DNA of 64,000 bases from Dyella halodurans (GTDB lineage Bacteria; Pseudomonadota; Gammaproteobacteria; Xanthomonadales; Rhodanobacteraceae): positions 248,001 to 312,000 of the forward strand of contig NZ_JAPDPF010000003.1 in assembly GCF_026283925.1 (NCBI RefSeq). Reading direction: 5' to 3'. The stretch's first letter is position 1. Each line of letters begins with the position of its first letter. Below are positions 23,449 through 64,000 of this stretch, in pieces. The notes beneath the pieces were generated by a model, which made no database searches, was not told the DNA's origin, and saw only the letters and a list, made by a program, of their open reading frames with translations. Both the position numbers and the translations under genes were made by a program.

Positions 23449-24239
23449 AGGACGTCCACCATTTCCGGACCCGCCTTGCGGAACATGACCAGAGCCAGCA
23501 GCATCAACAAGCACGATGCCGCGACGATCGCAAGCAGCGGACCCCATTCCGGCTCGACCCCAAAAACCAGCACGTTCTGGTAGCTCTTGACGATCGGATA
23601 GATGGGATTGAGATTGAATAGATGGCGCACGTTCTCGGGAAACATTGTCACGTTATACACGACCGGTGTCAGCCAGAACGTAATCTGCAGAATGACCGGA
23701 ATAACCTGACCCAAGTCGCGCATGAAAACGTTCAGAACGCCAAGAACCAGCCCCAGGCCAAGGCTCAGGAGCAGATTGATGGCGATCAATACCGGCAACC
23801 ACAGCACATGCACGTCTGGAATATGCCCCAGCGCGGCGAACACCATGAAGATCGCTACCATCAGCAGAAGGTTGTTAACCGTCGTCGAACCGGCCGCGAT
23901 CAATGGCAGGCAGATCCGCGGAAACGCCATCTTTTTCATCAGATTGCCGTTATCGATGAAAAGCGTCAGGCAGCGCGAAATGGTTTCGGCAAACAGCGAC
24001 CAACCCAGCGTACCGGCCATCAGGTAAAGCGCGTAGGCATACTTGTTGTTGATGCCGGGCAGCTTCGCCGAGAGAACGTTCGACAGGATCAGAGCAAAGA
24101 TCAGCACCTGGCTGAGCGGATGGATAATCATCCACAAACCACCCAACTTGCTTCGGATGAAACGGACGCGCAGTTCGTTCTTTATGGATGAAAGAATGAA
24201 ATAGCGATAACGCCACGCGGCTTTGATCATTTGTTCCAT
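23445..24239 (-). CDS. wzm: Polysaccharide ABC transporter permease
   Basis: A 264-residue ABC-2 type permease with six hydrophobic segments and the family features ELRVRFIRSKLGGLWMIIHP before the first span, NLMKKMAFPRICLPL in the loop, and a late NLNPIYPIVKSYQNVLVFG. It pairs with Wzt to pass a lipid-linked glycan through the inner membrane. The frame is open far upstream but homologous sequence starts at ATG 24239, 62 bp after the metB stop. First gene of a minus-strand operon continuing through wzt, FkbM, glycosyltransferase, gmd and rmd, all with overlaps or gaps of ten bases or less. Confidence 0.94.
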   Translation of the reverse strand: MEQMIKAAWRYRYFILSSIKNELRVRFIRSKLGGLWMIIHPLSQVLIFALILSNVLSAKLPGINNKYAYALYLMAGTLGWSLFAETISRCLTLFIDNGNLMKKMAFPRICLPLIAAGSTTVNNLLLMVAIFMVFAALGHIPDVHVLWLPVLIAINLLLSLGLGLVLGVLNVFMRDLGQVIPVILQITFWLTPVVYNVTMFPENVRHLFNLNPIYPIVKSYQNVLVFGVEPEWGPLLAIVAASCLLMLLALVMFRKAGPEMVDVL

Positions 24240-48437: not shown

Positions 48438-48451
48438 CTGATCCAAGTCAG
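48438..48451 (+). promoter_or_regulatory. FNR/DNR-like palindrome upstream of azurin
   Basis: CTGATCCAAGTCAG, a 5-4-5 palindrome with the TGA-N6-TCA core of FNR/CRP-superfamily sites, centred about 71 bp upstream of the azurin ATG. That places it where a class II activator near -41 would leave a 5' leader of about 30 bases. Assignment rests on likeness to four other palindromes in this region. Confidence 0.6.
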
Positions 48452-48515
48452 CGCGAGGCATTCGTGGGATGCCCCATCGTTAGGCTTTCCCCGACATCCT
48501 CAATGGAGAGTTCTG

Positions 48516-48965
48516 ATGGTTCGCAAGACCTTTGCCCTTGCCTTGCTTGGCCTGTTCGCCATGCCGCTCTGGGCTGCCGACTGCGCCGCCACGATCGAAG
48601 GCAGCGATGCCATGCAGTTCAACCAGACAAGCATCGCGGTACCCAAGACGTGCAAGCAGTTCACCGTCACGCTCAAGCACACAGGCAAGCTGCCCAAGGC
48701 ATCGATGGGCCATAACTGGGTGCTCGGCCATGCGGCCGACGAGTCGGGCATCCTGGCCGATGGCATGAAAGCAGGCGCCGAGCACGACTATGTCAAGCCT
48801 GACGACGAGCGCGTGGTCGCGCACACCAAGCTCATTGGCGGCGGCGAGTCAGCCAGCGTCACCATCCCGATGGCCAAGCTAAAGGCCGGTGAAGCCTATG
48901 CCTACTTCTGCACCTTCCCAGGCCATGCCGCCTTGATGAAGGGCACGTTGACCCTGGGCATGTAA
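48516..48965 (+). CDS. Azurin (type 1 copper protein)
   Basis: A 149-residue precursor with signal peptide [20 protein letters not shown] and mature start ADCAATIEG. Type 1 copper ligands are all visible: His in [11 protein letters not shown], then Cys, His and Met in [18 protein letters not shown]; the disulfide cysteines are in ADCAA and KTCKQF. Azurin carries electrons in the periplasm and is a known donor to copper nitrite reductase, which lies 14 kb to the right. GGAGAGTTCTG precedes the ATG. A palindrome shared with other genes of this region lies upstream. Confidence 0.96.
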
Positions 48966-49101
48966 GCAACGAGCGGATCTGCCGCCGCTGTCGTGAGACG
49001 CAGACGCCGGGCCCGCGCCCGGCGTTTGCTTGGCACCGGTTTGCGAAACGCGGACCCAGCCGTGCCGCTCGCGCACAAGCTGGGCCCGTACGACAGGATC
49101 G

Positions 49102-49602
49102 TCAGCGCAGGACCGCCAAGGCGGCGTCGTAGTTCGGCTCATCGGCGATCTCGCCGACCAGCTCGGTATGGATCACCTTGTCGTGCGCATCGAGAACGAC
49201 CACGGCGCGCGCTGCCAGGCCAGCCAGCGGACCTGACGAGATCGCCACGCCGTAGTCCTGCAGGAACTCGTGGCCACGCATGGTCGACAGCGTCACCACG
49301 TTGTCCAGGCCCTCGGCGCCACAGAAACGTGCCTGTGCAAACGGCAGGTCGGCGGAGATGCACAGCACCACGGCATGGTCGAGCTGGCTGGCCTTTTCAT
49401 TGAAACGACGCACCGAGGTGGCGCAGGTCGGTGTGTCGATGCTGGGGAAGATGTTCAGCACCTTGCGCTTGCCGGCAAAGCTGGCGAGGGTGACATCGGA
49501 CAGGTTCTTGCCGACCAGAGAGAACGCCGGCGCCTGGGCACCGTTGGCGGGAAGGGAACCGTCGACCTGGACCGGCTGGCCCTTGAGGGTAACGTGGGAC
49601 AT
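49102..49602 (-). CDS. tpx: Thiol peroxidase (atypical 2-Cys peroxiredoxin)
   Basis: A 166-residue Tpx. The peroxidatic cysteine is in [18 protein letters not shown] near residue 60 and the resolving cysteine in [11 protein letters not shown] near 94; [20 protein letters not shown] and the C-terminal [11 protein letters not shown] are typical. It reduces peroxides using thioredoxin. Upstream, 22 bp away on the same strand, is the CopD-like gene, so both may be read together. Full length. Confidence 0.95.
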
Positions 49603-49624
49603 GAGGCACCTCGCTGGATGGGGC

Positions 49625-50062
49625 CTATAAGTAGAACATGGTCTTGGCCAGAAACACGATGCCCACCATCAGCGCCAGCACCACGCGATGGGTGTGGCGG
49701 AATCGACAGGGATCGAGACGGCCACGCGATCCTGCACGCAGGGTCATGACAAACACCACCAGCACCAGCAGGGCCAGGCTCACCTTGGTCAGCAGCAGCC
49801 AGCCGAAATGCGAGCCGAGACAGCTCAGGCCACCGCAGCGAATGGTGAACAACATCGCGCCGCTCAGATACAGCAGACCCACCACCCAGGGCATGATCCG
49901 CCGTGCGCGTTGCATCACGGCCTGTTCAAGGCGCTCCATGGTGGCGCGATCAAACTGCCGATGCAGTGCGTCGAGTATGAGCACCTCGAACGCCGCCGCG
50001 CCAATGAAGACGATGGCGCAACTCAGGTGCAGCAAGACCACCCAGGGATACCAAGCGCTCAT
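49625..50062 (-). CDS. CopD-like four-helix membrane protein
   Basis: A 145-residue protein with four hydrophobic segments. [21 protein letters not shown] at the start, with a His in the first span, [17 protein letters not shown], and a final [18 protein letters not shown] with His residues suit a heme- or copper-binding bundle of the CopD/DUF2269 kind. Such proteins are often found with copper nitrite reductase and copper uptake genes. It precedes tpx on the same strand. The family assignment is by general pattern, not by a decisive motif. Confidence 0.7.
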
Positions 50063-50394
50063 CGGAAGCTCTGACCTGCCATGGCGATATCAGGCCATTC
50101 CGCCCCGGCGCAGCGCCATGACTTCGATCAGGGGAAAGCGCGAACAGGCTCCGAATCCTCTCCCGGAATGGCCATGGCGGCGCGCGGCGATCCGACGCGG
50201 CGCTCGTCACCGTGCCTTGACTGGCGTCATGGCGACCACCTCTCGTCACCTCGAGCATGTCCGCTTGCTTGAGGGAGATGCGCTTTGGATGACACGCGAA
50301 CGTGGTGGCTGGCATGAGCGGCAGTCGTCCACGGTCAACCCGGCGGGTGGCGTCGTGGCGTAACTTGGGGCAATCCTCCCCGCTGGAGCACGCC
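50063..50394. other. 332 bp divergent intergenic region between the copD-like and tyrA-like genes
   Basis: No credible gene. Two palindromes stand out: ATGACTTCGATCAG at 50118-50131, listed separately, and TTGACTGGCGTCAT at 50217-50230, which also has the TGA-N6-TCA core but lies about 160 bp from either start codon and so may be chance. A short frame from the ATG at 50230 encodes 44 residues with no recognisable feature. Confidence 0.5.
50118..50131 (-). promoter_or_regulatory. Weaker FNR/DNR-like palindrome upstream of the copD-like gene
   Basis: ATGACTTCGATCAG keeps the TGA-N6-TCA core but is less symmetrical than the others. Its centre is about 62 bp upstream of the copD-like ATG, the same distance as for the fabA site. 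Confidence 0.4.
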
Positions 50395-51189
50395 ATGTCG
50401 TTCGCCCTGCTCGGCTATGGCCGCTTTGGCCAAGCCTTCGCCAACCTGCTGCGCCGCGCCGGGCATCGGCTGCAGGTATTCGATCCTGCTGCCGAGGTTC
50501 CCGCGCCGCTGGCCGCAGCATCCGCTGCAGCTGCGATCGCCGAAGCCTCATGGGTAGTGCTGGCGATGCCGGTACCGCGGTTGGAATCGGCGTTGCGCGA
50601 ACTGCGCCCACTGCTCCATCGCGGGCACATCGTCATCGACGTAGGCAGCGTCAAGCAACACCCTTGTGAGCTGATGGACGAGCTGCTGGGTACGGCCATA
50701 CCCCACCTCGGCACGCATCCGCTGTTCGGTCCGTTGAGCCTGGCGCGCGGCGAACGTCCGTTGCGCACGGTGATCTGCCCCAGCGGGCAACATCCCGAGG
50801 CCGCCATGCGCGCCCGCCGGTTGTTCGAAGAACTCGGCTGCGAGGTCATCACGCAGGATCCAGCCACGCATGATCGCGCCATGGCCGAGACGCACGCGCT
50901 GGCCTTCTTCATTGCCAAGGCCATGGTCGACCTGGGCATTGGCGAGGACCTGACGGTGGCGCCGCCTTCGTTTCTCGGCCTGGCCAGCATGCTGTCGGCG
51001 GTGCGCGGCGACGCCGGCCACCTGTTCGCCGCCATCCAGCGCGAGAACCCTTATGCCGCCGATGCCCGTGCGCGTCTGCTGACGCAGCTGGAGGCGATTC
51101 ATCGCCAGTTGCTGGCCGGCGGCGATGGCGGCGCGCTGTCCATTCCCGATCTGTCCGAAGACTCCGATGAGCCATCACGACCTGCGTAG
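50395..51189 (+). CDS. Prephenate/arogenate dehydrogenase-like protein
   Basis: A 264-residue TyrA-type dehydrogenase. [19 protein letters not shown] is the NAD(P)-binding loop; [36 protein letters not shown] and [16 protein letters not shown], with the catalytic His region, follow the family order; the C-terminal half is helical. It should convert prephenate or arogenate toward tyrosine. ATG 50395 gives the normal start. It overlaps ubiD by 23 bases, so the two are translated together; both use chorismate-derived compounds, tyrosine and ubiquinone precursors, which may explain the pairing. Confidence 0.85.
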
Positions 51190-52678
51190 CTTTATTCATC
51201 AACTGGAACGCGATCGGCAACTGCTGCGCGTACCCGTGCCGGTCCACCCGTATCTCGAATCCACTGCGCTGAGTCTCCGGGCGCTGCGCGAAGGCGGCCC
51301 CGCCCTGCTGATGGAGCAGCCCACCGGTTCCCAGCACTGCTTGCTGGGCAACCTGTTCGGGCATCGCCGGCGCATCGAGATGGCGCTGGCGGGCCGGCCG
51401 CTGGCCTCGCTGCGGGAACTGGGCCAACTGCTGGCTTCGATCAAGGAGCCGCGTTGGCCAGCCAGCCTGCGAGAGGCGCTGGCGACCTGGCCCGAACTGG
51501 CGCAGCTGGCCAACGTCGCGCCGCAGCGCGTGCATGAAGCGGCCTTCGAGTACGAGACGCTGCAGGGCAGCGAAATCGACCTGTCGCGCCTGCCGATCCA
51601 GCATTGCTGGCCCCAGGATGCGGGCAAGCTGATCACCTTCGGCCTGGTGGTCACACGCGGTACGCGCCAGCGCCGGCAAAACGTGGCGATCTACCGCCAG
51701 CAGGTCATCGGTCCAAACCGGGTGATCATGCGCTGGCTGCCGCACCGCGGCGGCGCGCTCGACTACGCCGACTGGAAGGCGTCCTCACCGGAACAACCGT
51801 TCCCCGTACTGGTGGCGATTGGCGCCGATCCGGCCACCATGCTCGCGGCCGTGGCACCGGTACCCGACAGCTTGTCGGAATACGAATTCGCCGGCTTGTT
51901 GCGCGGCCAGCGCACGCGCGTCTGTCACAGCGCGCTCACCGGACTGGATGCCCCGGCGGGCGCGGAAATCGTGCTGGAGGGTTTCATCCGACCCGACGAT
52001 GTCGCGCTGGAAGGTCCGTTCGGCGACCACACCGGCTACTACAACGCGCAAGCCCCCTTCCCGGTATTCACCATCGAGCGGATGCGCCTGCGCCGCGACG
52101 CGATCTACCACGGCAGCTACATGGGCCGCGCACCGCATGACGAACCCTCGGTGCTGGCGATGACCTTGAACGACTTGTTCGTGCCAATCCTGCAGAAGGT
52201 GTTTCCCGAAATCGTCGATTTCTTCCTGCCGCCGGAAGCCTGTTCGTATCGCGTCGCCGTGGTCAGCATCCGGAAGCAGTATGCCGGCCATGCAAGGCGC
52301 ATCATGATGGCGGTGTGGTCCTATCTGCGCCAGTTCACCTATACCAAGTTCGTCATCGTCACGGACGATGACATCGACGTACGCGACTGGTCGCAAGTGA
52401 TCTGGGCGGTGGCCACCCGCGTCGATCCGGCGCGCGACAGCCTGATCGTCGAGAACACCCCCATCGACTACCTCGACTTCGCCAGCCCCGCGGCCGGCCT
52501 GGGCTCCAAGCTCGGCATCGACGCCACCAACAAATGGCCGTCCGAAACCTCGCGTGCGTGGAGCCAGCCGATCGTCCCCGATGCGAAGGTCGAGCAGCGC
52601 GTCCATGCGCTGTGGAAGCAGCTGGTCGGGTCCGGTGACGCGGGCGCACGCGACGGTGTGTCACAGGCGAGCCGATGA
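51167..52678 (+). CDS. ubiD: UbiD-family decarboxylase (3-octaprenyl-4-hydroxybenzoate carboxy-lyase type)
   Basis: A 503-residue UbiD. The prenylated-FMN site residues lie in [40 protein letters not shown], with its catalytic Glu/Arg, and [24 protein letters not shown] is near the end. It decarboxylates polyprenyl-hydroxybenzoate in ubiquinone synthesis with a UbiX-made cofactor. ATG 51167 is inside the tyrA-like gene's end. Length is normal. Because other UbiD members act on different aromatic acids, a non-ubiquinone role cannot be excluded. Confidence 0.9.
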
Positions 52679-52738
52679 CCACCGTGGGATGATGAAAGCC
52701 GCTTTACAAGCAAGCCGATCCGGCCGCAAAGGACGCAG

Positions 52739-53104
52739 GTGACACGCATTCGGACTCCACGCTGGGTTGCCTGGGCGGCGATGGTCGCCCTGTGGCTCAC
52801 CATCGTGGCGCCGGTGATCTCGCAGTCGCTTGCCGTCGACAGCATGCCGGGGATGGTGGGGTGCGAGTCGCAGCACGCGCATCCGGACCCCACCGTTCCA
52901 CCGTCACATCCATCGTCGATGGAGAAATGCGGTTACTGCGGCCTGCTCGGTCACAGCCCCGCTCTGATCGGCCATGCGGTGCCCTTGCCCCATCCCGCAC
53001 CGGCGAGATGGCACGGCACTGCCGCCTTGCCGGCACGGCTCCAAACGGAATATTCCGCGCTGGCTGCAGCCCCACGGGGACCGCCGGCTTTCACGCAGCA
53101 CTGA
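52739..53104 (+). CDS. DUF2946-like small envelope protein
   Basis: About 121 residues from the GTG at 52739 (AAAGGACGCAG just upstream). One hydrophobic segment, WAAMVALWLTIVAPVISQSL, acts as a signal or anchor; MEKCGYCGLLGHSPAL with a Cys pair and His residues is the mark of DUF2946 proteins, and several His and Met residues occur before it. These proteins commonly precede TonB-dependent copper receptors, as here (69 bp). A periplasmic metal-binding role is likely but unproven. Confidence 0.78.
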   Translation: MTRIRTPRWVAWAAMVALWLTIVAPVISQSLAVDSMPGMVGCESQHAHPDPTVPPSHPSSMEKCGYCGLLGHSPALIGHAVPLPHPAPARWHGTAALPARLQTEYSALAAAPRGPPAFTQH

Positions 53105-53172
53105 GTGACTTTTCATCGCCTTCGCGGCCATCGCCGCGCGGCTTTCTGCTGCCTGCTATTTCGGATTCAGTT

Positions 53173-55362
53173 ATGTCCTACCTACCCCTCCATGTGCGCG
53201 CCCTCGCGGCGACGCCTTCGCTTCCACGCGCCCGCCACCCAGCGGGTGCACCATCACGCTTGCCGCTGCGGCGGCTGTCGCTGGCGCTGTTCGTCGCCTT
53301 TTCTCCTGCGCACGCTGGCGAGGCCATTCCGCTGCAAAACCTTGCCCCGATCGTGGTCACCGCACCGATGCAGGATAGCCCGCTGACCGTGATCACCGAC
53401 CCCAAGGCGCCGCGGCAACCCGTGCCGGCCAGCGACGGCGCTGACTTCCTCAAGAGCATTGCCGGCTTCTCCACCATCCGCAAAGGCGGCAGCAATGGCG
53501 ACCCGGTGTTGCGCGGCATGGTCGGCTCACGCCTGAACATCCTGGTCGACGGCGGCCAGATCGGGGGCGGCTGTCCGTCGCGCATGGATCCACCCACCGC
53601 CTATATTTCGCCGCAGCTATACGACCGTGCCATCGTGATCAAGGGACCGCAGACGGTGTTGTACGGGCCGGGCAACTCGGCGGGCACGGTGTTGTTCGAA
53701 CGCGATTTCAAGCGCTACGCCGCACCCGGCATCAGCATGGAAGGCAGCGCGTTGGTCGGCTCCGCCGGCCGCAACGACCAGATGGTCGACCTGCGCGCCG
53801 GCACACCCAACGTCTACATGAACATCGATGCCAACCACACCCATGCGCAGGACTATCGCGACGGCGACGGTCACCATGTGCATTCGTCCTGGGACCGCTG
53901 GAACACCGATGCAGCAATCGGCTGGACACCGGACGACAACACGCGCATCGAGTTGTCGTCCGGCAAGGGCAACGGCCATGCCGCCTATGCGTTCAGCAGC
54001 ATGGATGGCGCGCAGTTCCTGCACGAAAGTGCCGGCCTGAAATTCGAGCATGAACGACCGGACACTTTGCTTAGTCGCATCGAAATGCAGCTGTACTACA
54101 ACTACACCGACCATGTGATGGACAACTACACGCTGCGCCATCCTGATCCGGCCAGCATGATGCCGCTGGCCATGGCCAGCGACGTAGATCGCCGCACCGT
54201 AGGCGGGCGCGCGGCCGCAACGTTCACGTGGGGCGAGGCGTTGAGCCTGGTCACCGGCCTGGATGGCTCCACCAGCGTCAATACCAGCCGCATGGGCGGC
54301 CCGGCAGGAGGCATGCTGCCAGACTATCGCGACCAGCCGCGCGAACGTACGGCTCGCATGGGCAGCCTCGGCCTGTTCGGCGAACTCACCTGGAACCTGG
54401 CCGAGCGCGATCGCTTGATCAGCGGCGCGCGTCTCGATCGTGCGCAGGTGCGCGGCTACGACCTGACCGGCGCCGGCAACAGCCAAAGCATGGGCGGCAT
54501 GAGCGGCATGAGCGGCATGAACGGCATGAGCGGCATGAGCGGCATGAGCGGCATGAGTATGGCATCGAACATCGACGCCAGTCGCTCGGACACGCTGCCC
54601 TCCGGCTTTGTCCGTTACGAGCACGACTTCGCCGCCACGCCCATGACTCTCTACGCGGGCATCGGTCACGTGCAACGCGTTCCTGACTATTGGGAACTGT
54701 TCGGGCGACACGCGGATAAGAGCCTGACCAGCTTCCGCCAATTGCAGGCAGAAAAGACCACCCAACTCGATATTGGCCTGCAATATCACGACGCGCACTT
54801 GCAAGCCTGGGTGTCGGGTTATGTGGGCGTGGTCCGCGACTTCATCGTGATGGATTACGCCAGCGGCGCGGACACCGCCGGGGCAAACAACGTAAACGCG
54901 CGTACGGCCGGTGGCGAGGCAGGTATGGCCTATACCATCAGCACGCGCTGGAAAGCGGATGTCACGCTCGCCTGGGCCTGGGGTGAAAACCGCAGCGAGC
55001 ACCGGCCACTGCCGCAGATGCCGCCGCTGGAGGCGCGCCTAGGCCTCGTCTACGACACCGGCACCTGGTCGCTGGGCAGCCTGTGGCGGATCGCCTCGGC
55101 GCAACGCCGTGTGGCGGTAGGCGAAGGCAATATCGTCGGACAGGATCTCGGCCCCAGTGCCGGCTTTGGCGTGTTCTCGTTGAATGGTGGCTACCGCGTC
55201 AATCGCGCGCTCACGCTCAGTGCGGGCATCGACAATCTCTTTGACAAGATCTATGCCGAGCACGTCAACGCCGCGAATGCGGGCTTGGTCGGCTACGTCA
55301 ACACGGTGCGCGTGAACGAGCCGGGGCGCACCGTCTGGCTGAAGCTGGACGCCAAGTACTAG
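53173..55362 (+). CDS. TonB-dependent copper receptor (OprC/NosA-like)
   Basis: A 729-residue outer-membrane receptor. The signal peptide has an unusually long n-region (about 30 residues) before LSLALFVAFSPAHA. APIVVTAPM resembles a TonB box; the plug has GGSNGDPVLRGMVGSRLNIL, GGCPSRMDPPTAYI with a Cys-x-x-x-Met metal site typical of this copper group, and GPQTVLYGPGNSAGTVLFE; the barrel ends VWLKLDAKY. A run of seven Gly-Met-Ser/Asn units (about 442-462) lies in a probable surface loop. It should import copper for azurin and nitrite reductase. ATG 53173 was chosen; the upstream frame overlaps the DUF2946 gene. Confidence 0.92.
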   Translation: MSYLPLHVRALAATPSLPRARHPAGAPSRLPLRRLSLALFVAFSPAHAGEAIPLQNLAPIVVTAPMQDSPLTVITDPKAPRQPVPASDGADFLKSIAGFSTIRKGGSNGDPVLRGMVGSRLNILVDGGQIGGGCPSRMDPPTAYISPQLYDRAIVIKGPQTVLYGPGNSAGTVLFERDFKRYAAPGISMEGSALVGSAGRNDQMVDLRAGTPNVYMNIDANHTHAQDYRDGDGHHVHSSWDRWNTDAAIGWTPDDNTRIELSSGKGNGHAAYAFSSMDGAQFLHESAGLKFEHERPDTLLSRIEMQLYYNYTDHVMDNYTLRHPDPASMMPLAMASDVDRRTVGGRAAATFTWGEALSLVTGLDGSTSVNTSRMGGPAGGMLPDYRDQPRERTARMGSLGLFGELTWNLAERDRLISGARLDRAQVRGYDLTGAGNSQSMGGMSGMSGMNGMSGMSGMSGMSMASNIDASRSDTLPSGFVRYEHDFAATPMTLYAGIGHVQRVPDYWELFGRHADKSLTSFRQLQAEKTTQLDIGLQYHDAHLQAWVSGYVGVVRDFIVMDYASGADTAGANNVNARTAGGEAGMAYTISTRWKADVTLAWAWGENRSEHRPLPQMPPLEARLGLVYDTGTWSLGSLWRIASAQRRVAVGEGNIVGQDLGPSAGFGVFSLNGGYRVNRALTLSAGIDNLFDKIYAEHVNAANAGLVGYVNTVRVNEPGRTVWLKLDAKY
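54496..54558 (+). repeat. 9-bp in-frame tandem repeat coding Gly-Met-Ser
   Basis: Seven units of GGCATGAGC (the third GGCATGAAC, the last GGCATGAGT). Low-complexity, slippage-prone, always in frame. Methionine-rich stretches bind copper(I) in other proteins, so it may be a functional collector. Confidence 0.9.
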
Positions 55363-55386
55363 GCGCCGGTTCGCGCCCAGAGCCAC

Positions 55387-55424
55387 AGGTGGATCGCGCC
55401 GCCTCCCACCGGCGCGATCCACCT
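55387..55424. terminator. Hairpin between the copper receptor and the small periplasmic gene
   Basis: Perfect 14-bp arms AGGTGGATCGCGCC and complement with a ten-base loop between two convergent genes. No T-run, so termination is inferred from position. Confidence 0.6.
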
Positions 55425-55451
55425 CGGCCCCCCAAAGGCATGGTCGGTAAC

Positions 55452-55943
55452 TCAGGGCTTGTCGCCCATCCCGTGTGCCGTCGAATCGGACGTCCATCCC
55501 GGGTCATCGAAATAGCGTGGATAAGCAGCCACCGCTTCACGCATCGCCGCCAGCTCGGCGACGTCGTGCGGATCCTGCTTGAACTTCTGTGCGGCCGCGA
55601 GCAAGTGCACCAGCATGCCGTGCAGCAGCTCGTCTTGCTGCGGCGGCAGCTTGCAGTGGGCAAAGATGGATGCGGCAGCGTCCTCGATCATGCTGATGCG
55701 GTCCATGGCCAGGCGCTCGCTCATATGGCCCATCTCGTAGTGCCGCAGTTGTTGCAGCGCCGTGTGGATGCTCGCCATGCCGTCGCGCAGTGGCGCGTCG
55801 GCCGGCCAGCGCGATGCGGCTATCGGCAGCTGCGTGTGTGGATCGTTCGCATGCGCGGCAGGTTCGTTCTGGGGCTGCGCCTGCACCAGGCCGCTCAAAC
55901 CAAGCACGCCGATCAGGACGAGACGGCACGGGGTGATGTTCAT
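55452..55943 (-). CDS. Small periplasmic protein, DnrO-like
   Basis: A 163-residue protein with signal peptide LVLIGVLGLSGLVQA. The mature part starts with His/Pro-rich spacer then RWPADAPLRDGMASIHTALQQL, CKLPPQQDELLHGMLVHLLAA and MREAVAAYPRYFDDP, a helical domain with conserved His and one Cys. I associate this pattern with proteins named DnrO in xanthomonad and pseudomonad denitrification or copper regions, but the function is not known to me and the name is from memory. ATG 55943 gives the signal peptide. A near-perfect palindrome 72 bp upstream links it to the regulon. Confidence 0.65.
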   Translation of the reverse strand: MNITPCRLVLIGVLGLSGLVQAQPQNEPAAHANDPHTQLPIAASRWPADAPLRDGMASIHTALQQLRHYEMGHMSERLAMDRISMIEDAAASIFAHCKLPPQQDELLHGMLVHLLAAAQKFKQDPHDVAELAAMREAVAAYPRYFDDPGWTSDSTAHGMGDKP

Positions 55944-56014
55944 GCGCGAGGTTCCAGCAAGCGGCGCACGCGCCGCGGACGACATCACGGTAACGCAATC
56001 GATCGTCGTCACGG

Positions 56015-56028
56015 CTGACGCAAGTCAA
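56015..56028 (-). promoter_or_regulatory. FNR/DNR-like palindrome upstream of the small periplasmic gene
   Basis: CTGACGCAAGTCAA, differing from the DUF2249 site only in one spacer base. Centred about 78 bp upstream of the ATG at 55943. Confidence 0.65.
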
Positions 56029-56181
56029 CGGCGCGCTGCGAGGCGGGCGTCGCGATGCCCGCCGCCTTTTCTGCGCGCACCCCGGCCCATTCGGCCCATG
56101 CGATCGCAGGGGCTTCCTTGCAGGGCAAGCAGGGGGATGGAGCCAGGGGCATGTGGTCACACCGGAATCTTGAACAAGCTC

Positions 56182-57390
56182 CTACACCTTGGCGAACACC
56201 AGGCTCGCATTGGTGCCACCAAAGCCGAAGCTGTTGGACATCACGGTGCTGAGCCGCGCATCGCGTGTCTCGCGAAGAATTGGAAAGCCCTTCGCGCGCG
56301 GGTCGAGCTCGTCGATATTGGCCGAGCCAGCCACGAAGCCGCCGTTGAGCATCAGCAGGCTGAAGATCGCTTCGTGCACGCTTGCTGCTCCCAGCGCGTG
56401 CCCCGTAAGCGCCTTGGTCGAGGACAACGGTGGCACGGCCTCGCCAAACACCCGCTGCACGGCTTCCAGTTCGACAATATCGCCCAGCGGCGTGGCGGTG
56501 CCATGGGTATTGAGGTAATCAACCGTCCCCGTCACGCCGGCCAGCGCCAGGCGCATGCAGCGCTCCGCGCCTTCGCCGGACGGCGCCACCATGTCGGCGC
56601 CATCGGAGGTAACGCCGTAGCCGACCAGTTCCGCATGGATGCGTGCGCCGCGCGCCTTGGCATGCTCGTACTCCTCCAGCACCAGCATGCCGCCGCCACC
56701 GCCGATGACGAAGCCGTCGCGACTCGCGTCATAGGGGCGCGAGGCGGCATGCGGCGCATCGTTGCGGACGCTGGACAGCGCCCCCATCGCATCGAACTGC
56801 GCGGTCATGCCCCAATGCACTTCCTCGCCCCCACCGGCGAACATGACGTCCTGGGCGCCGTGGCGAATCAGGTCGGCCGCCGCGCCGATGCAGTGCGCGG
56901 AAGTGGCGCAGGCCGCGGCAATCGAATAGCTCAAGCCCAGGATGCCGAATGCGGTCGCCAGCGTGGCCGACACGGTGGAGCACATCGTGCGTGGCACCAT
57001 GTACGGGCCGACGCGCCGCACGCCCTTCGCACGCAGCAGCTCGGCCGTCTCGATCTGCCACTGCGCCGAGCCGCCGCCGGAACCGGCAATGACACCGCTG
57101 CGTGGATGACGCACCTCTTCGAGGGCGAGTCCGGCATCGGCGATCGCCGCGCGCATCGCCACATAGGCGTACGCTGCAGCGTCGCCCATGAAGCGCTTGA
57201 GCTTGCGGTCGATCGACGCCTCCAGGTCGATCTCCGGCACGCCCGCCACCTGGCTGCGCAGGCCGAGCGCCGCGTAGTCGGGCATCGCGCGGATGCCGCT
57301 TTGCAGGTCGCGCAATGCGCGCGTCACCGTATCGGCCATATGGCCGAGGCAAGACACGATGCCCATGCCGGTCACCACCACGCGGCGCAT
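56182..57390 (-). CDS. fabB: 3-oxoacyl-ACP synthase, FabB type
   Basis: A 402-residue condensing enzyme. The catalytic triad is complete: Cys in [19 protein letters not shown] near 163, His in [14 protein letters not shown] near 298, and His in [18 protein letters not shown] near 333; the C-terminus has [14 protein letters not shown]. The FabB type is judged from the fabA neighbour and the short length. With FabA it makes unsaturated fatty acids by the oxygen-independent route. Its ATG overlaps the fabA stop (TGATG). Being inside a denitrification region it may be a second, anaerobically used set. Confidence 0.92.
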
Positions 57391-57905
57391 CAGAAGCCCT
57401 CCGTCGACTGGAACAGGCCCACGCGCATGTCGGTGGCCACGTAGATCAGGCGATCGTCCACATAGGTCTTCCCGTCGGCGACGACCAGGGCAAGTCGTCC
57501 ACGCATCACACGGCGGACGTCCACCTCATAGCGCACCAGCTTGGCGGAAGGCAGTACCTGGCCGGAGAACTTCACTTGCCCGACGCCCAGCGCGCGTCCG
57601 CGGCCTGGCTCGCCCAACCACGGCAGGAAGAAGCCGCTCAACTGCCACATCGCATCAAGGCCCAGACAACCAGGCATCACCGGGTCGCCGTCGAAATGGC
57701 AGCCGAAGAACCACAGGTCGGGACTGATATCCAGCTCTGCGCGCAGGACACCCTTGCCGAAGGCGCCGCCGTGGTCGTCGATATGCGTGATGCGATCGAA
57801 CATCAGCATCGGCGGGGATGGCAGGCGCGCGTTGCCCTCGCCGAACATCTCACCGCGGGCGCAGGCGAGCAGTTGCTCGCGATCTAACGAGGAAGGTCGT
57901 GTCAT
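57390..57905 (-). CDS. fabA: 3-hydroxydecanoyl-ACP dehydratase/isomerase
   Basis: A 171-residue FabA, full length. [21 protein letters not shown], the catalytic His in [17 protein letters not shown] and Asp in [12 protein letters not shown] are all present, as is [13 protein letters not shown]. It dehydrates 3-hydroxydecanoyl-ACP and isomerises it to the cis-3 product, the entry point to unsaturated fatty acids without oxygen. ATG 57905 is the family start; an upstream ATG at 57974 falls inside the palindrome and is unlikely. It forms a two-gene operon with fabB. Confidence 0.95.
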
Positions 57906-57960
57906 GAAAAAACCGCAGGTAGGAAAAACCCGAGTCTGCGCGTGCCATTTCGCGGCGGCC

Positions 57961-57974
57961 CTGATGCGGATCAA
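57961..57974 (-). promoter_or_regulatory. FNR/DNR-like palindrome upstream of fabA
   Basis: CTGATGCGGATCAA matches the FNR consensus TTGAT-N4-ATCAA at nine of ten defined positions. Centred about 62 bp upstream of the fabA ATG. Confidence 0.65.
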
Positions 57975-58177
57975 GCGTAAGCCGACATACGCCTGCGTAC
58001 TTTTTCCCGGCCACCCTGGCCGGAAGCGATCGGCTCAGGCGGCTTCGCACCGATAGGCAGCGCGGGCGGCGCGCGCCATGCGCGCACCCGACGCTCGCGT
58101 TCGTGGTCGCGCGCCACGACACCAGGCCGCGCTGGACCTACCGGAGCAGGCATACACGCGCGCTGCCATCTGCGCAC

Positions 58178-59455
58178 TTAGGTTCGGACCCCGGCAGTGA
58201 TGAGGAAACGGCGCGTGCGCCAACGCACGCCAATAAACATCAGGCCTACCACCAGCCACGCGGCGCACAGCGCCAGCCCGGCCGCACGGGCGAGCCAGGC
58301 CACGGGGTAAAGCGTGGCGGCCACCAGCAGCAGCGCCGCAGCCGCCAGCGCAAGCAGGCCCGCACTCCGGTCGCGCGAGGGCATCAGGCGTTGTACGCCA
58401 GGCAGCTGCACCCCACGTCCAACCCGTCGATGCAGATCTATCCAACCCAGAAAGGCGACGATCTCCAGCGCCATGCCAACCACCAGCACGGGCAGCGCGC
58501 CGCCCAGCGCGAGGACGGCGGCGCCCATCTGATACCTGTTGCCTACCCCGAAGGCCAGCGCCGACAACACCAACGCCGCGGCGCCGCCTCGCCAACTCCA
58601 CCATAGCGGCCCGCGCCGAGACGATGGCGTGCGCCGCTGCAGTCCGAGCACCCCAACACCGAATGCGAGCGCGCACGACGCCAACACGACACACATGCCA
58701 CCTGCATCGTCACGACCGAGCCGCCAGGCCGCCGCCGCAGACAGCAGCAACGGGAGCGCGACCAGCCAGGTCGCCAGGTGCCTGGCCGACGGCACCCGCG
58801 TGCCTTGGAACATGGGCATGACCACGCCGGACACGCTGACCAACAGCAGCAACACCCAGCCGGCGATACCCCAGGAAGCGTGCACGTCGACCAGAGCCGG
58901 CAGGCGTATCGGGAAATAACCCGCGCGAGCCAGCGCCAACGTCGCTCCGAGCAAGCCCACGATCGATCCGAATGCCAGCGACATACCGATGCCCGCGCGC
59001 AACAGCCGCTGCAGGGAGGCCTGCAGCAGGCCAGGAACCGTCATGCCGGCCAGCATCGCAAACGCAGTCGGCAAGGCGAGTGCTGCCGCCAGCAGGGCCA
59101 CATGCGAACCCTGTCGCAGGCCGAATACGAGCGCCAGCGCGCCCGCGTTGAACAAGCCGTGCAAGTACGCACCGAGGCGCACACCACGCAGGCGAACGCC
59201 AGCCGCCGCCGGCAAAAACTGCAGCAGGCTGCCGAACATCGCGTTGCCGAGCACGCCCAGCGTATAGGCATGAACCAGGGCCAGCGTGCCTGGATGCCAA
59301 CGCGAACGCAGCAGTGCGTCGCCATCGACGAGCAGCAGCACACCCGCCAGCATCCCCCACGGCGGCATGCTGAGCAGAAAGCGGCGCGGCAGCGAGACTA
59401 CCGGCGCCTGATCAAGCGCCAGCTTGGCCATCGCCGCAAGTAGCGTCGCTTGCAT
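58178..59455 (-). CDS. NnrS-like multi-spanning membrane protein
   Basis: A 425-residue, very hydrophobic protein with about twelve spans. HAYTLGVLGNAMFGSLLQFLP near residue 60 and DVHASWGIAGWVLLLLVSVSGVVMPMF near 190 carry the spaced His residues of NnrS and related heme-copper-oxidase-like proteins of denitrifiers, which are linked to nitric oxide stress. Its start overlaps the DUF2249 gene by 44 bp (or 20 bp if ATG 59431 is used). Located in a denitrification cluster; function inferred, family moderately sure. Confidence 0.72.
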   Translation of the reverse strand: MQATLLAAMAKLALDQAPVVSLPRRFLLSMPPWGMLAGVLLLVDGDALLRSRWHPGTLALVHAYTLGVLGNAMFGSLLQFLPAAAGVRLRGVRLGAYLHGLFNAGALALVFGLRQGSHVALLAAALALPTAFAMLAGMTVPGLLQASLQRLLRAGIGMSLAFGSIVGLLGATLALARAGYFPIRLPALVDVHASWGIAGWVLLLLVSVSGVVMPMFQGTRVPSARHLATWLVALPLLLSAAAAWRLGRDDAGGMCVVLASCALAFGVGVLGLQRRTPSSRRGPLWWSWRGGAAALVLSALAFGVGNRYQMGAAVLALGGALPVLVVGMALEIVAFLGWIDLHRRVGRGVQLPGVQRLMPSRDRSAGLLALAAAALLLVAATLYPVAWLARAAGLALCAAWLVVGLMFIGVRWRTRRFLITAGVRT

Positions 59456-59714
59456 GGCATCGAATGGTCACGCGCGTGCCGCCCTCGGCAAGTGGCTCCG
59501 CCCGCGCGTCGAGGCCACGTTCGGCCAGGGCAGTCAGCAAGGGCATCGGCATCAAGGGCGTGAGCACGACCAGCGACTGCCCAGGCACCAGTGTGTCCGC
59601 CGCGGCCAGAGCGCGCTGCAAGGGTTCGGGGGGCGCAAGCTCGCGCAGATCAAGCGGCGCCGCCGGAGGGGCATGATCGGTGCTGCAGGCGCAGCCGCGG
59701 AATGACGTTTGCAT
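59412..59714 (-). CDS. DUF2249-domain protein
   Basis: A 100-residue TusA-like fold. LDLRELAPPEPLQRALAAADTL is the family start motif and LVVLTPLMPMPLLTALAERG the second helix; extra cysteines occur near both ends (CACS, CHASDATC). DUF2249 proteins are frequent beside nitrite and nitric oxide reduction genes, with no settled function. It leads an operon with the NnrS-like gene and has a strong palindrome 41 bp before its ATG. Confidence 0.85.
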   Translation of the reverse strand: MQTSFRGCACSTDHAPPAAPLDLRELAPPEPLQRALAAADTLVPGQSLVVLTPLMPMPLLTALAERGLDARAEPLAEGGTRVTIRCHASDATCGDGQAGA

Positions 59715-59748
59715 GCACGGATTTCAGCGCATGCGCGACGTCGGCGCG

Positions 59749-59762
59749 CTGACTCAAGTCAA
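59749..59762 (-). promoter_or_regulatory. FNR/DNR-like palindrome upstream of the DUF2249 gene
   Basis: CTGACTCAAGTCAA, centred 41 bp upstream of the ATG at 59714. If it is bound near -41.5, the leader would be nearly absent, so either the start codon is farther in or binding is at another position. Confidence 0.65.
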
Positions 59763-59803
59763 CGCGCCGGCGCAGCCGGCCAGGCCGGATCGGATCTTCA
59801 CGA

Positions 59804-61042
59804 TCAAAGTGGCTGCTTGCCCTGCCACTCCAGTTGCAGCCATAGCTTGGTGCTGTCGCGTGAAAAATTATCCGCGCGGTAATCGGCCAGCTTCACCAGG
59901 CCAGTGAGGCCAGGCAACAGCGGGAACGACAGCGAGGCATTCCATTCGCTGCCGTAGTGCGCGGAGCCGCGATCGGCATGGTAGTCGTGATAGCTGACGA
60001 TCCAGCCAAACTTGCTGGCCAGGCCATGGCTGCCCAGGTTGCCGTTGAAGGCGACGTAGTAATCCTGCAGGCCATTGACCGGCGTGACCAGGAATTGATC
60101 GTCCCAGCCATTGAAAGCATGCAAGGTGGCCAGCGGTGTCTGCAAGGCCGTGCGGCCGTCGCCGCCCAGATGCTCCCAGCCCAGCTTGCCGGTGACGCCA
60201 AACTGGGTCCATGCGGGCTCCAGCAGCCAATAGCTGTGGGCGAAGTTCTGCGGATTGTTCGCGTAGTCGTATTGGCGCGCACCTTCGAGCGCCCAGCTGA
60301 AGCCGCCATCCGGTGCCGGCTTGCCGGTCCAACGCAGGCCATAGGTGGCGGTGGAGGCGGTGGCGACGTCCTTGTCCTTGTGCAGATAGGCGTAGCCAAC
60401 CCATTGCTGCTCGCCGTGCGTCCACGCCGTGTTGAGCAGATGGGTGTTGAGCAGGCGCTGCTGCGCCAGTGGATTGAGCGCATCGGGACCGGCCACGCGG
60501 TTCACTCGTTCTAGCCAGTCGTAGCGCACGGTCCAATCCGTGGCGGGCCTCCATTGCGTGGATAGCGCGTCGAAGGTCTGCTCGAACTGGCGCCAGCCCG
60601 AATTGCCTATCCAGCGCTGATTGTCCAACACGATCTCCTGGCGGCCCAGCCTGGCGCCGAAGCTGTCACCCAGCCAGCCGACCCAGGCCTGGTTGAGTTC
60701 GCCGCCGTGCGGATCGGTGATGGTGGGGTATTGGGTCTGACCGTTGGCGCCGCTGTTGTAGTGGTCATTGGCGCTGGCCACGCCGGCACCCTCCACGAAG
60801 GCACTCCAGCCGTTACCCAGGTTCGCCCGCAGGCCCAGGCGCACACGCAAGGTATCGGCCATGGCGGTGCGACTGTAAGCATCGTCGTCGACCTGCTCGT
60901 GGCGAAGTCGCGCATTCCATTCGAGTTGCAGCGGCGCATCGGGTGTCGGCGCCGATTGTGCGCTGGCGGCGCTTGACGCGGCCAACGCGGCGCAAAGGGA
61001 CAAACCAAGCCGGTAACCGCGGCCGTGGTGTAAAGCTCTCAT
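59804..61042 (-). CDS. Alginate-export-type outer-membrane porin
   Basis: A 412-residue protein with signal peptide LGLSLCAALAASSAASA and a barrel of alternating residues: LEWNARLRHEQVDDDAY, LRVRLGLRANLGNGWSAF, GELNQAWVGWLGDSFGARLG, with the family stretch RQEIVLDNQRWIGNSGWRQ, ending WLQLEWQGKQPL. This is the alginate_export domain family, also common in denitrifiers next to nir/nor genes, where it may pass nitrite or other anions; alginate export as such is unlikely here. ATG 61042 is preceded by AGGAG at good spacing, so I reject the earlier ATG at 61063. Confidence 0.88.
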   Translation of the reverse strand: MRALHHGRGYRLGLSLCAALAASSAASAQSAPTPDAPLQLEWNARLRHEQVDDDAYSRTAMADTLRVRLGLRANLGNGWSAFVEGAGVASANDHYNSGANGQTQYPTITDPHGGELNQAWVGWLGDSFGARLGRQEIVLDNQRWIGNSGWRQFEQTFDALSTQWRPATDWTVRYDWLERVNRVAGPDALNPLAQQRLLNTHLLNTAWTHGEQQWVGYAYLHKDKDVATASTATYGLRWTGKPAPDGGFSWALEGARQYDYANNPQNFAHSYWLLEPAWTQFGVTGKLGWEHLGGDGRTALQTPLATLHAFNGWDDQFLVTPVNGLQDYYVAFNGNLGSHGLASKFGWIVSYHDYHADRGSAHYGSEWNASLSFPLLPGLTGLVKLADYRADNFSRDSTKLWLQLEWQGKQPL

Positions 61043-61514
61043 CCAAGACTCCTGTCTCATCACTCGCTATCGAGTGCAAGCAGTCTCGGTGGATGGGTTT
61101 CGATGTCGTCTGACGATGGTCAAGGGAAAAACGTTCGACGTGGCGCTGTGACAACGCGCCACGCTTCGTCACCGGCAACGCGCTTTTCCATGGCTTCGCC
61201 GCCCGACATGCGAAAGCAATGATGGTCGTCGCGGCATGAACTTCCACACTCTGCGGCCAGCAGATCCGGTTCGCGGCCACGCAAGTGGCGTGTGCTCACT
61301 GCAGCAAGCATGCGCCAAGCACTTTGCGAATCGACGCACGCAAGACTGGCGATCACTGCGCCATAAGCGACGCGCTTGCGTATCGCGCGTGACGGATCGG
61401 GACGCGGGCAGGTAGCCAGGCGCGTAACAGCAGAAGTCACCAACGGTGGCGATCCGTTGGTGGCTTCCATCTCGCGTGACGTGAGTCGAGGCCGCCGTCT
61501 CCGTCGCGTCGTGC
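61043..61514. other. 472 bp upstream region of the porin gene
   Basis: Both neighbours read leftward. Apart from the ribosome-binding site and the palindrome at 61110-61123, no supported feature was found; a 116-codon minus-strand frame at 61120-61470 has no recognisable content and an unlikely composition. Confidence 0.5.
61110..61123 (-). promoter_or_regulatory. FNR/DNR-like palindrome upstream of the porin gene
   Basis: CTGACGATGGTCAA, centred about 74 bp upstream of the ATG at 61042; the reverse strand reads TTGAC-N4-GTCAG. Confidence 0.65.
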
Positions 61515-62084
61515 CTATTTGGCGGCGAGTGCCTTGCGCACGGCCTGGACGAAATCCGGATCCAGCCGACCCATGACGTCGCTGCGCGCGAGGATGCGGC
61601 CATCGGCATCCAGCAGGATCAATTCGCTGGAATGATTGAAGTCACCATCCGGCAGCTGTCGGTACTGCAGGCCGAGCAAGGCAGCGAGCTGACGCGCGTC
61701 CTGCGACTCGGCGCGGGCGAGCGTCCAAGGCGGCGCGTTCAACTTGCGCCGGTCGGCGTATTCGCGCAGCGCCGCAACACTGTCGCGGGCTGGGTCGAAG
61801 CTCACCAGGAGCAGGTCAAGCCGGCCACGCGCCGACTCATCCAGCGCCTTCGCGGTAAGTTTCATGGTATCCACGACCATGGGGCACACCATCGTGCACG
61901 AGGTGTAGAACATCGAGACCACTTGCACATGCCCTCGACGCGCAGCCCATGGCCAGTCATGTCCGTCCTGGTCGGTGAGCCTGACCTCGAGCTGATAGAC
62001 CGAGTCCCCGGGAAGCGGCGCACGGGCAAAGACCTGGCCTGCAAAGAAAACCAGACACAACAACATCAGCAGGTGTTTCATCAC
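61515..62084 (-). CDS. SCO1/SenC-family copper chaperone
   Basis: A 189-residue protein with signal peptide LLMLLCLVFFAGQVFA. The copper site is complete: FYTSCTMVCPMVVD with the CxxxC pair near residue 64 and the His in FNHSSELILLDADG. SCO proteins deliver copper or reduce thiols for copper enzymes such as CuA oxidases; here, six bases after nirV and in an operon with nirK, it probably serves nitrite reductase. It is the last gene of that operon. Confidence 0.92.
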   Translation of the reverse strand: MMKHLLMLLCLVFFAGQVFARAPLPGDSVYQLEVRLTDQDGHDWPWAARRGHVQVVSMFYTSCTMVCPMVVDTMKLTAKALDESARGRLDLLLVSFDPARDSVAALREYADRRKLNAPPWTLARAESQDARQLAALLGLQYRQLPDGDFNHSSELILLDADGRILARSDVMGRLDPDFVQAVRKALAAK

Positions 62085-62090
62085 AAATCC

Positions 62091-62861
62091 TCAGTGCGAG
62101 CGCGCACAACGGAAGCCCATCGAGCTGGTGGTATCAGAGGCTTTCAGCGCGGACAGCATGGCGACACGCATCAGGCTGGCGTAGTTCTCTTTCTGCTGCA
62201 TGGTGAGCGCACCGGCGCCACAGAACTTCAACTTGTCGGCGCCATCCTGGTCCCGGCTATCGACGCCGACCAGCAAGGCATTGAAGTCGCCCACCCATTC
62301 CCATACCAGGCCATTGAGATCGCTTACTCCATGCACGTCCGCCGCGCCGCCGATGGCGGGCAGCGGCGTGTTGGAAGGACGGCCGTACCATGCCAGTACG
62401 CGCTCGCGCCATGCCGGGTCGTTGCGCGCATCGGCACGGTGGTCATCGGCCGCGGCCGCGTATTCCCACTCGTACCAACTCGGCAACCTGGCCTGCTCGC
62501 TCTCGCAATAGGCTTGTGCGGCAAACCAGCTGATTTGCGTCACCGGTTGTGATGGCTGTGCTTCGCTGCCCAGCACATCGGCTGCTGCCCAGTGCGAAAG
62601 GTAGCGACCGTCGGCAAAAATTCCCGCTACGCGGTCGCGGCGCCACTGTGGGTGCGTCTGCACGAAGGCGAGGAATTCCGCGTTGGTAACCGGCTCGGTG
62701 CGCAGCTGGAACGGCTCGATGGTCACTGGTGCCGCCTTGCCATCGGCCGGCATCACGCTGGTGAACAGGCCGCCCGGCAGGGCGGCGTAGTTCGCCGCCG
62801 CTGCCGGCAAGGAGAGCAACGCGCCGAGCATCAGTATCGGCAGACTGCGCAGCGCGTTCAT
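62091..62861 (-). CDS. nirV: Formylglycine-generating-enzyme-like protein, NirV type
   Basis: A 256-residue protein with a signal peptide ending PAAAA. It has the FGE-sulfatase fold motifs: RTEPVTNAEFLAFVQTHPQW, QPVTQISWFAAQAYCESEQARLPSWYEWEYAA, DLNGLVWEWVGDF and SSMGFRCAR at the end. NirV genes follow nirK in many denitrifiers; their role is unknown, maybe maturation. Catalytic cysteines of true formylglycine enzymes are not obvious. It starts two bases after the nirK stop. Confidence 0.9.
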   Translation of the reverse strand: MNALRSLPILMLGALLSLPAAAANYAALPGGLFTSVMPADGKAAPVTIEPFQLRTEPVTNAEFLAFVQTHPQWRRDRVAGIFADGRYLSHWAAADVLGSEAQPSQPVTQISWFAAQAYCESEQARLPSWYEWEYAAAADDHRADARNDPAWRERVLAWYGRPSNTPLPAIGGAADVHGVSDLNGLVWEWVGDFNALLVGVDSRDQDGADKLKFCGAGALTMQQKENYASLMRVAMLSALKASDTTSSMGFRCARSH

Positions 62862-62863
62862 CG

Positions 62864-64000
62864 TCAGTGCCCCGCTGCCGCCGGCGCCGGCTGTGCGCGC
62901 ACCTTGCTTACCTCCTCCGCACTGATCTGCCCGCCAGGATTGCCCCAGCTGTTGAGCACATAGGTGAGGATGTTGGCGACTTCGTCGTCGGTAAGCTGGC
63001 TCATCGGCGGCATCACCGAGTCGTAGTCCTTGCCGTTGACCGTGACCTTGCCCGTGCGGCCATGCAGCGGGATCGCAATCAGCTGCTCCTTGCTCTGCTT
63101 GGCCAGGTAATCGGACTTGGCGAGGGGAGGAAACACGTTAGGCAAACCTTCGCCGTTCGCCTGATGGCAGACCGAACAGGTACCGGCAAACAATTGCTGG
63201 CCGGCCTTGACCTGGTCATCCTTGCTCAAGGTGCCCGCTGCATTGGCCTTGGCCGCGACGCTGACCGCATGGAGGTTCGGCCCGGCGCGGTCGCCCAGGT
63301 AGACCGAATCGACTTCCTTGCCCGAGTAGATCGCCTTGTTTTCCGGGCCATCCACCTTGAGGATGCCCATCGCGCCCTTGTTGAAGGCGCGGAAGATCGA
63401 ATGGTCGACCAGTACATAGCTGCCCGGCACGTCCACGTGGAATTCCGCCATCATCGCGCCACCGGACGGAATCAGCGTGGTCTGCACGTTCTCCTGCGCG
63501 TGCTTGCCGCCTTCGTAGTAGACCTTGTCGAAGATCTCGCCGATCACGTGGAAACTCGACACCAGGTTCGGTCCGCCATTGCCCACGAACAGGCGCACGG
63601 TTTCGCCGGTCTTGGCGGTCAACGCGTTGTCGCCGGTCAGCGCGCCCTCGCGGCCGTTGAACAGCACGTAGGTCGGATGCTCATCGATCGCCTTGTCCAT
63701 ATCGAACGGCTGGTGACCCTTCTCGCGGTACTTGCCCGTCGTATAGAAGTCGCCCTGCATGACGTAGTACTCGTGGTCCACCTTCGGCAAGCCTTCCGGC
63801 GGCTCCACCAGGATCAGGCCATACATGCCGTTGGCGATGTGCATGCCCACCGGCGCCGTGGCGCAGTGGTAGACGTAGATGCCGGCGTTGAGCGCCTTGA
63901 AGGTGAATTGCGACTCGTGCCCCGGCGCGGTGAAGCTTGACGCCGCGCCGCCGCCCGGGCCGGTGACGCCGTGCAGGTCGATGTTGTGCGGCATCTTGTT
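62864..64000 (-). CDS. nirK: Copper nitrite reductase fused to cytochrome c (5' end outside the window)
   Basis: The frame runs off the right edge; 378 residues remain. Copper sites: PHNIDLHG with type 1 His, catalytic Asp and type 2 His; [17 protein letters not shown] with His, Cys, His and Met; SSFHVIGE and [15 protein letters not shown]. From about residue 265 a class I cytochrome c follows, with [14 protein letters not shown] as heme site and [20 protein letters not shown] with the Met ligand. It reduces nitrite to nitric oxide in the periplasm, with the heme domain as built-in electron entry, perhaps from azurin. The internal ATG at 63994 is not the start. Confidence 0.95.

Follow-up and report, generated by a model that had tools for sequence, protein, structure and literature searches.

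In a 64,000-nt stretch of the Dyella halodurans genome (assembly GCF_026283925.1, contig NZ_JAPDPF010000003.1, positions 248,001–312,000; hereafter the window), five palindromes of the form YTGAYN4RTCAR precede an azurin gene, a small dnrO-like gene, the fatty acid synthesis gene fabA, a DUF2249 gene and a porin gene. Our analysis indicates that these palindromes are very probably operators of an oxygen-sensing FNR-type activator, and we infer that this activator would turn on oxygen-independent unsaturated fatty acid synthesis along with denitrification. All five palindromes are genuine; as predicted FNR-type boxes, four show clear conservation, and the azurin box is weaker. What can be read directly from the sequences is the boxes themselves, their conservation in relatives, the constant distance between box and −10-like hexamer, and six candidate regulators bearing four ligand cysteines and an E..SR motif. 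The window corresponds to C19:248001–312000 of a genome in 25 contigs, and coordinates with a C prefix below refer to contigs of this genome.

Predicted FNR-type boxes in the window

All five palindromes were found at the positions given in a preliminary description of the window, each matching YTGAYN4RTCAR, and the weaker site that it had placed before a copD-like gene is also present. The sites are as follows.

48438..48451, CTGATCCAAGTCAG, predicted FNR-type box upstream of azurin (pattern match)
50118..50131, ATGACTTCGATCAG, weak predicted box upstream of the copD-like gene
56015..56028, TTGACTTGCGTCAG in gene orientation, predicted FNR-type box upstream of the dnrO-like gene
57961..57974, TTGATCCGCATCAG in gene orientation, predicted FNR-type box upstream of fabA
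59749..59762, TTGACTTGAGTCAG in gene orientation, predicted FNR-type box upstream of the DUF2249 gene
61110..61123, TTGACCATCGTCAG in gene orientation, predicted FNR-type box upstream of the porin gene

The distances from the site edge to the start codon are 64 bp for azurin, 71 bp for the dnrO-like gene, 55 bp for fabA, 34 bp for the DUF2249 gene and 46 bp for the porin gene (counted from the GTG at 61063; approximately 67 from a later ATG), close to the range of 41–78 bp reported earlier. The preliminary description had also argued from density, with one match expected per 65 kb. This expectation is correct for equal base frequencies, and the measured genome rate is one per 45 kb (104 matches in 4.69 Mb; 22 for the reversed pattern), with some of the matches falling inside genes. 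The window is indeed enriched, containing six matches versus a shuffle mean of 0.79, and none of 100 shuffles reached six; the sixth match, at 23776, lies inside long open frames and is probably due to chance. However, five sites in any 12.7-kb stretch have a p value of 0.018 (104 uniformly placed sites, 5,000 simulations), and with so loose a pattern we dropped density as proof. The oriented form TTGAYN4RTCAG occurs at 58 sites in the genome, five of which lie within 8.4 kb, an arrangement found in 1 of 20,000 simulations (∼5e-5). The more stringent TTGAYTTGNGTCAG is matched perfectly at three places in the genome, namely at 56015, at 59749 and at a site before nirK just beyond the window edge. 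Because clustering by itself is only modest evidence, it is conservation and promoter geometry that decide the case.

Conservation of the boxes in relatives

We located orthologues in 80 nirK loci; where the start was placeable and at least 120 bp of upstream sequence was available, the 300 bp before the gene were scanned. The closest named relatives of nirK are mostly from Dyella species (86–89% identity), with one from Frateuria also at 89%. This comparison of orthologous promoters, which the preliminary description had proposed as a check, found the boxes largely kept: the full motif is present upstream of hemN in 19 of 20 relatives, of the porin gene in 13 of 14, of the DUF2249 gene in all 6 and of fabA in 15 of 22 in this nirK-locus set. 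A box is also present before nirK at 58 of 79 loci (59 of 80 rows match, but locus L105 was dropped as an artefact of its truncation); in D. halodurans this box lies at C19:312407–312420, 407–420 bp beyond the window edge, and is followed by an FNR-type gene and hemN. The dnrO-like gene has the full motif in three of five relatives and copD in three of four (within 300 bp). The membrane-protein gene after the DUF2249 gene has it in 11 of 15, the upstream box falling in its scan window. The azurin site is the least conserved of the five, with the full motif in two of six relatives (at −76/−77) and the core in four of six. Among the control genes, the motif was found for sco in 0/76, nirV in 1/73, fabB in 1/22, tpx in 0/9, fnr in 0/22 and gapA in 0/6; the reversed pattern gave 0 throughout, and dinucleotide-shuffle means ranged from 0 to 0.38.

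Promoter geometry

Promoters were aligned on the box, with the offset counted in bases from the first base of the site to the start of a hexamer. In box-bearing promoters, a hexamer of the form NA...T begins at offset 36 (35–37). It is present at offsets 35–37 in all 76 distinct fabA promoters with a core site, compared with 8 of 76 at offsets 26–28 and a median of 6.5 and a maximum of 11 of 76 at other offset triplets, and likewise in 20 of 21 distinct porin promoters, 18 of 19 hemN promoters and 54 of 67 nirK promoters. The fabA hexamer is usually CAGACT or CACACT. In the window, the following elements are predicted.

57933..57938, minus strand, predicted −10 hexamer of fabA, CAGACT (offset 36)
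61082..61087, minus strand, predicted −10 hexamer of the porin gene, GAGACT
59721..59726, minus strand, predicted −10 hexamer of the DUF2249 gene, TGAAAT

Relatives of the DUF2249 gene carry TGAAAT, TGAGAT, TGATAT or TGCAAT at offset 36 in 12 of 15 cases. The dnrO-like gene has TACCGT at offset 36, azurin has only a weak CATCGT at offset 37, and the copD-like gene in this genome has no NA...T hexamer at offsets 35–37. If the hexamer is the −10 element, the box centre lies at −41.5. Class II FNR sites sit near −41.5, and the spacing therefore suggests that the boxes have a class II position.

In addition, all 19 hemN relatives have an in-frame ATG located 47–50 bases downstream of the first base of the box, and all six DUF2249 relatives have one at 48–49 bases; transcription would be expected to start at offset 48. 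The −10-like hexamer ends approximately 7 bases ahead of this conserved ATG in both genes. From this geometry, the hemN and DUF2249 mRNAs are predicted to be near-leaderless, with transcription beginning no more than a few bases from the ATG. The two sites with this arrangement are 59762–59714 (DUF2249) and C19:314722–314673 (hemN, outside the window). Our literature search found no paper treating leaderless mRNA, hemN and Fnr together.

Candidate regulators

Ten HTH_Crp_2 proteins over the cut-off are encoded in the genome, and three weaker matches fell below it. By eye from their sequences, six of the ten have CxxCx5C, a central cysteine and ETVSR, and the other four lack E..SR. No cysteine-free E..SR regulator, as expected of the DNR type, was found among the ten, the three weaker matches being outside this check. 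For the nirK-adjacent and C11 paralogs, alignment to solved FNR matches all four ligand cysteines and E..SR (ETISR there); we take the four aligned cysteines to be ligands of a [4Fe-4S] cluster. Six FNR-type paralogs with all cluster cysteines thus occur in one genome (on C11, C18, C19 and C20), and two of them adjoin hemN genes.

The preliminary description had named FNR, DNR or NnrR as the regulator and placed it outside the window. The latter holds, with the best-placed candidate gene (C19:312478–313254) sitting only ∼0.5 kb beyond the window edge, beside nirK and hemN. An assignment to the CRP/FNR superfamily also agrees with the conserved sites, the class II geometry, the six E..SR proteins and the presence of nos and ubiquinone-type genes near boxes. 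NnrR is unlikely, because its published motif ctTTGcgnnnncgCAAag (PMC1274295) does not fit the YTGAY/RTCAR sites, whereas the FNR and DNR motifs are too alike to tell apart. The regulator acting at the boxes is probably one or more of the six FNR-type paralogs.

Further boxes and denitrification genes in the genome

A cluster on C18 comprises nosZ (TIGR04244), a second hemN (TIGR00538), a gene for a nosR-like protein and two CRP/FNR genes, as well as genes for Peptidase_U32 proteins (ubiU/V-like), an SCP2 protein (ubiT-like) and a decarboxylase, and boxes are located among these genes. On C20, nnrS (PF05940; C20:289654–290886) has an intergenic box at 289568, and ccoN (TIGR00780) also has an intergenic box. 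A perfect palindrome, CTGACTTAAGTCAG, is present at C24:52807, between a second gene for DUF2249 (a family that we take to be COG4309) and a divergent open frame. A second nirK, 88% identical, is located at C22:43109–44548 near a norB-like gene.

fabA-fabB as a putative anaerobic module

The two fatty acid synthesis genes of the window are the following.

57390..57905, minus strand, fabA, 3-hydroxydecanoyl-ACP dehydratase/isomerase (TIGR01749, 281.8 versus a cut-off of 238.15)
56182..57390, minus strand, fabB, beta-ketoacyl-ACP synthase I (NF005935, 632.8 bits versus a cut-off of 630), overlapping the end of fabA

This fabA encodes the sole true FabA found in the genome, the other FabA-family match being FabZ, and one desaturase match was also found. 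To place these genes in the family, we used a set of 233 genomes, some of them incomplete (Rhodanobacteraceae by named relatives), with strong matches defined as E < 1e-60 for FabA and E < 1e-100 for NirK. Strong FabA is present in 119 and strong NirK in 112 of these genomes; 89 have both, 30 only fabA, 23 only nirK and 91 neither. The odds ratio for co-occurrence is 11.7, or 5.2 (p = 8.5e-5) after stratification by genus, which is an incomplete correction for shared ancestry. fabA was found in 22 of the 80 nirK loci, within up to 10 kb on either side. A desaturase homologue is present in 227 of the 233 genomes (query, a 216-residue piece), and the six genomes without one are <90% complete. 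fabA is thus an accessory gene in the family and is linked to nirK.

The fabA upstream regions were examined in 110 of the 119 genomes. The full motif is present in 70 (expected from single-base shuffles, 0.21) and the core in 82, and 66 of the 70 full motifs are located 55–95 bases before the start. The full box is found in 57 of 87 promoters from genomes with nirK and in 13 of 23 from genomes without it. These features point, with fair but limited confidence, to a reading in which fabA-fabB, in Rhodanobacteraceae and in certain genera belonging to other families of the order, is an anaerobic module rather than a housekeeping pair, gained with denitrification, controlled through a class II FNR box whose distance is fixed, and serving to replace the oxygen-requiring desaturase once oxygen is exhausted.

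In the mechanism that we propose, falling oxygen would allow one or more FNR-type proteins to bind as dimers with intact clusters, and the bound proteins would activate transcription as class II activators. Nitrite respiration would be switched on through nirK, the porin, the DUF2249 operon and probably azurin, and through nosZ elsewhere in the genome; oxygen-independent heme synthesis through hemN; ubiquinone synthesis through the ubiU/V- and ubiT-like genes; and unsaturated fatty acid synthesis through fabA-fabB. FabAB would take the place of the oxygen-requiring desaturase that almost all family members appear to carry, and membrane fluidity would be kept during denitrification. If this is true, membrane unsaturation, heme, ubiquinone and nitrite respiration would all be under one oxygen switch.

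Evidence against and alternative explanations

Several observations weigh against this interpretation. None of the six paralogs reaches the NCBIfam cut-off for Fnr (NF008365; 149–217 bits versus 228), and we therefore call them FNR-type proteins rather than curated Fnr. The −10-like hexamer is poor by the Escherichia coli standard: the usual fabA forms have 3/6 identity to TATAAT, and only 7 of 76 fabA promoters reach 4/6, although such a poor match might suit an activator-dependent promoter. The predicted −10 of the DUF2249 gene lacks an A at −11, and NA...T was found in none of its 15 relatives. The preliminary description had expected boxes at nor, nos and nar genes, and its expectation was borne out only for the nosZ region: no core site lies shortly before the norB gene on C20 (PF22085) or the norB-like gene on C22 (assigned by PF00115 only, with no NCBIfam match), and narG was looked for in the genome but not found. 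The C20 norB follows an Rrf2-family gene, a placement that would fit NsrR control. Likewise, no core box was seen in the upstream stretch of the second nirK. The link of fabA to nirK is also incomplete, as nirK is missing from 30 of the 119 genomes with fabA, and fabA from 23 of the 112 with nirK. Finally, 28 of 110 family fabA promoters have no core site, and outside the family (40 fabA genes hand-picked from 116 positive genomes, among 299 sampled in the order) only 11 of 40 have the full box and 13 of 40 the core. The wiring of fabA is therefore widespread but not universal.

If the regulator were instead a nitric oxide-sensing protein of the DNR type, the boxes would respond to nitric oxide produced by NirK. 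The published DNR motif CTTGATnnnnATCAAG nearly equals the FNR box and occurs on nir, nor and nos genes in beta-proteobacteria, and both COG4309 and nnrS belong to published DNR/NsrR networks (PMC1274295). However, all six E..SR regulators retain the cluster cysteines, the four others over the cut-off lack E..SR, and the norB genes have no box. hemN, fabA, the ubi-like genes and ccoN are typical low-oxygen rather than nitric oxide targets, which also counts against a DNR-type regulator, and we consider it unlikely. FNR clusters also react with nitric oxide, and a mixed response to oxygen and nitric oxide is possible. Palindromes arising by chance, or binding sites for Clp, a CRP-like protein, would account for a loose pattern that occurs 104 times in the genome, some of them inside genes, and whose density is only modestly unusual. 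The half-site of CRP/Clp is GTGA, whereas that of the boxes is TTGAY, and neither conservation nor fixed spacing with clean controls fits such an origin, which is refuted for fabA, hemN, the porin gene, the DUF2249 gene and nirK and is highly improbable as a general account; it may still hold for azurin, copD and many of the other matches.

A further alternative concerns fabA rather than the regulator. The fabA box may be only part of a general low-oxygen FNR regulon, in which case the nearness to nirK would be accidental and fabAB would have no functional tie to denitrification. The retention of the full box in 13 of 23 fabA promoters of nirK-negative genomes and the 30 fabA genomes without nirK favour this explanation. 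The co-occurrence of fabA and nirK beyond genus effects and the presence of fabA near nirK in 22 of 80 loci argue against it, and we regard it as a serious but somewhat doubtful alternative to a module gained with denitrification.

Relationship to known regulons

FNR/ANR regulons include hemN and respiratory genes among their targets. hemN is listed in the site table of PMC2908626, and in E. coli ubiUV and ubiT are under direct Fnr control (PMC10470549). The predicted regulon resembles FNR/ANR regulons in its TTGAY-N4-RTCAA operator, its box near −41.5, the cluster cysteines and the hemN and respiratory targets. It differs from them in that six cysteine-bearing paralogs occur in one genome, fabAB is a conserved target, the palindrome often carries C or G at one outer position, and hemN and the DUF2249 gene are predicted to be leaderless. 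Boxes of the DNR/FNR type were already known from denitrification genes, in networks that also include nnrS and COG4309 (PMC1274295), and our set is similar to the DNR regulon in its near-identical motif, its nirK and nosZ targets and the inclusion of COG4309 and nnrS in the published networks; unlike that regulon, it has no cysteine-free E..SR protein among the ten HTH_Crp_2 proteins over the cut-off. The terms 'fab' and 'azurin' are absent from the main text of PMC1274295, and fabA is absent from the main text of PMC2908626, PMC8510549 and PMC3688515.

In Pseudomonas aeruginosa, unsaturated fatty acids cannot be made anaerobically without fabAB, and desaturases function under aerobic conditions; a fabA fusion in E. 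coli was activated by Anr, and deletion of anr lowered fabA expression by ∼25%, an effect judged to be probably indirect and minor (PMC3462791). The division between fabAB for anaerobic and a desaturase for aerobic synthesis is shared with our proposal, but the box with class II spacing conserved across the family is not. In the literature examined, we encountered a single test of whether an oxygen sensor controls fabAB directly, in that P. aeruginosa study, which did not establish such control (PMC3462791). We found no report of FNR control of fabAB in Rhodanobacteraceae in titles and the beginnings of abstracts (subscription papers, preprints and RegPrecise-type databases were outside this scope). 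The new part of our findings is therefore the conserved, positioned fabA box across the family, together with fabA being accessory and linked to nirK; the rest is mostly textbook. Relatives in Rhodanobacter and Dyella are known from soil and the subsurface. A cell that denitrifies has to produce its unsaturated lipids in the absence of oxygen, and a conserved FNR box on fabA in a family that keeps its desaturase would provide a simple, testable rule tying membrane composition to anaerobic respiration.

Other genes of the region

The remaining genes around the boxes are as follows.

48516..48965, plus strand, azurin (Copper-bind, PF00127; Pfam match)
49625..50062, minus strand, CopD-like membrane protein (below the Pfam cut-off, 24.7 bits versus 32.1)
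55452..55943, minus strand, small protein, called DnrO-like in the preliminary description (no family match)
58178..59455, minus strand, polytopic membrane protein (NnrS-like by setting only)
59412..59714, minus strand, DUF2249 protein (predicted leaderless, with its ATG at offset 48)
59804..61063, minus strand, outer-membrane porin of the alginate-export family (PF13372)
61515..62084, minus strand, SCO1/SenC-like protein (operon-internal control, no box)
62091..62861, minus strand, FGE-sulfatase-domain protein, NirV-like (operon-internal control)
62864..64000, minus strand, nirK, copper nitrite reductase with a C-terminal cytochrome c-like part (continues past the window edge)

A TonB-dependent copper receptor (TIGR01778) is encoded at 52792–55362, with no FNR box match shortly before its gene. 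The protein at 55452–55943 has no match in Pfam or NCBIfam, leaving the label 'DnrO-like' unconfirmed. The membrane protein at 58178–59455 likewise has no Pfam or NCBIfam match, although it is present in at least 15 relatives; we rejected the name NnrS for it for lack of Pfam support, the true nnrS gene being that on C20.

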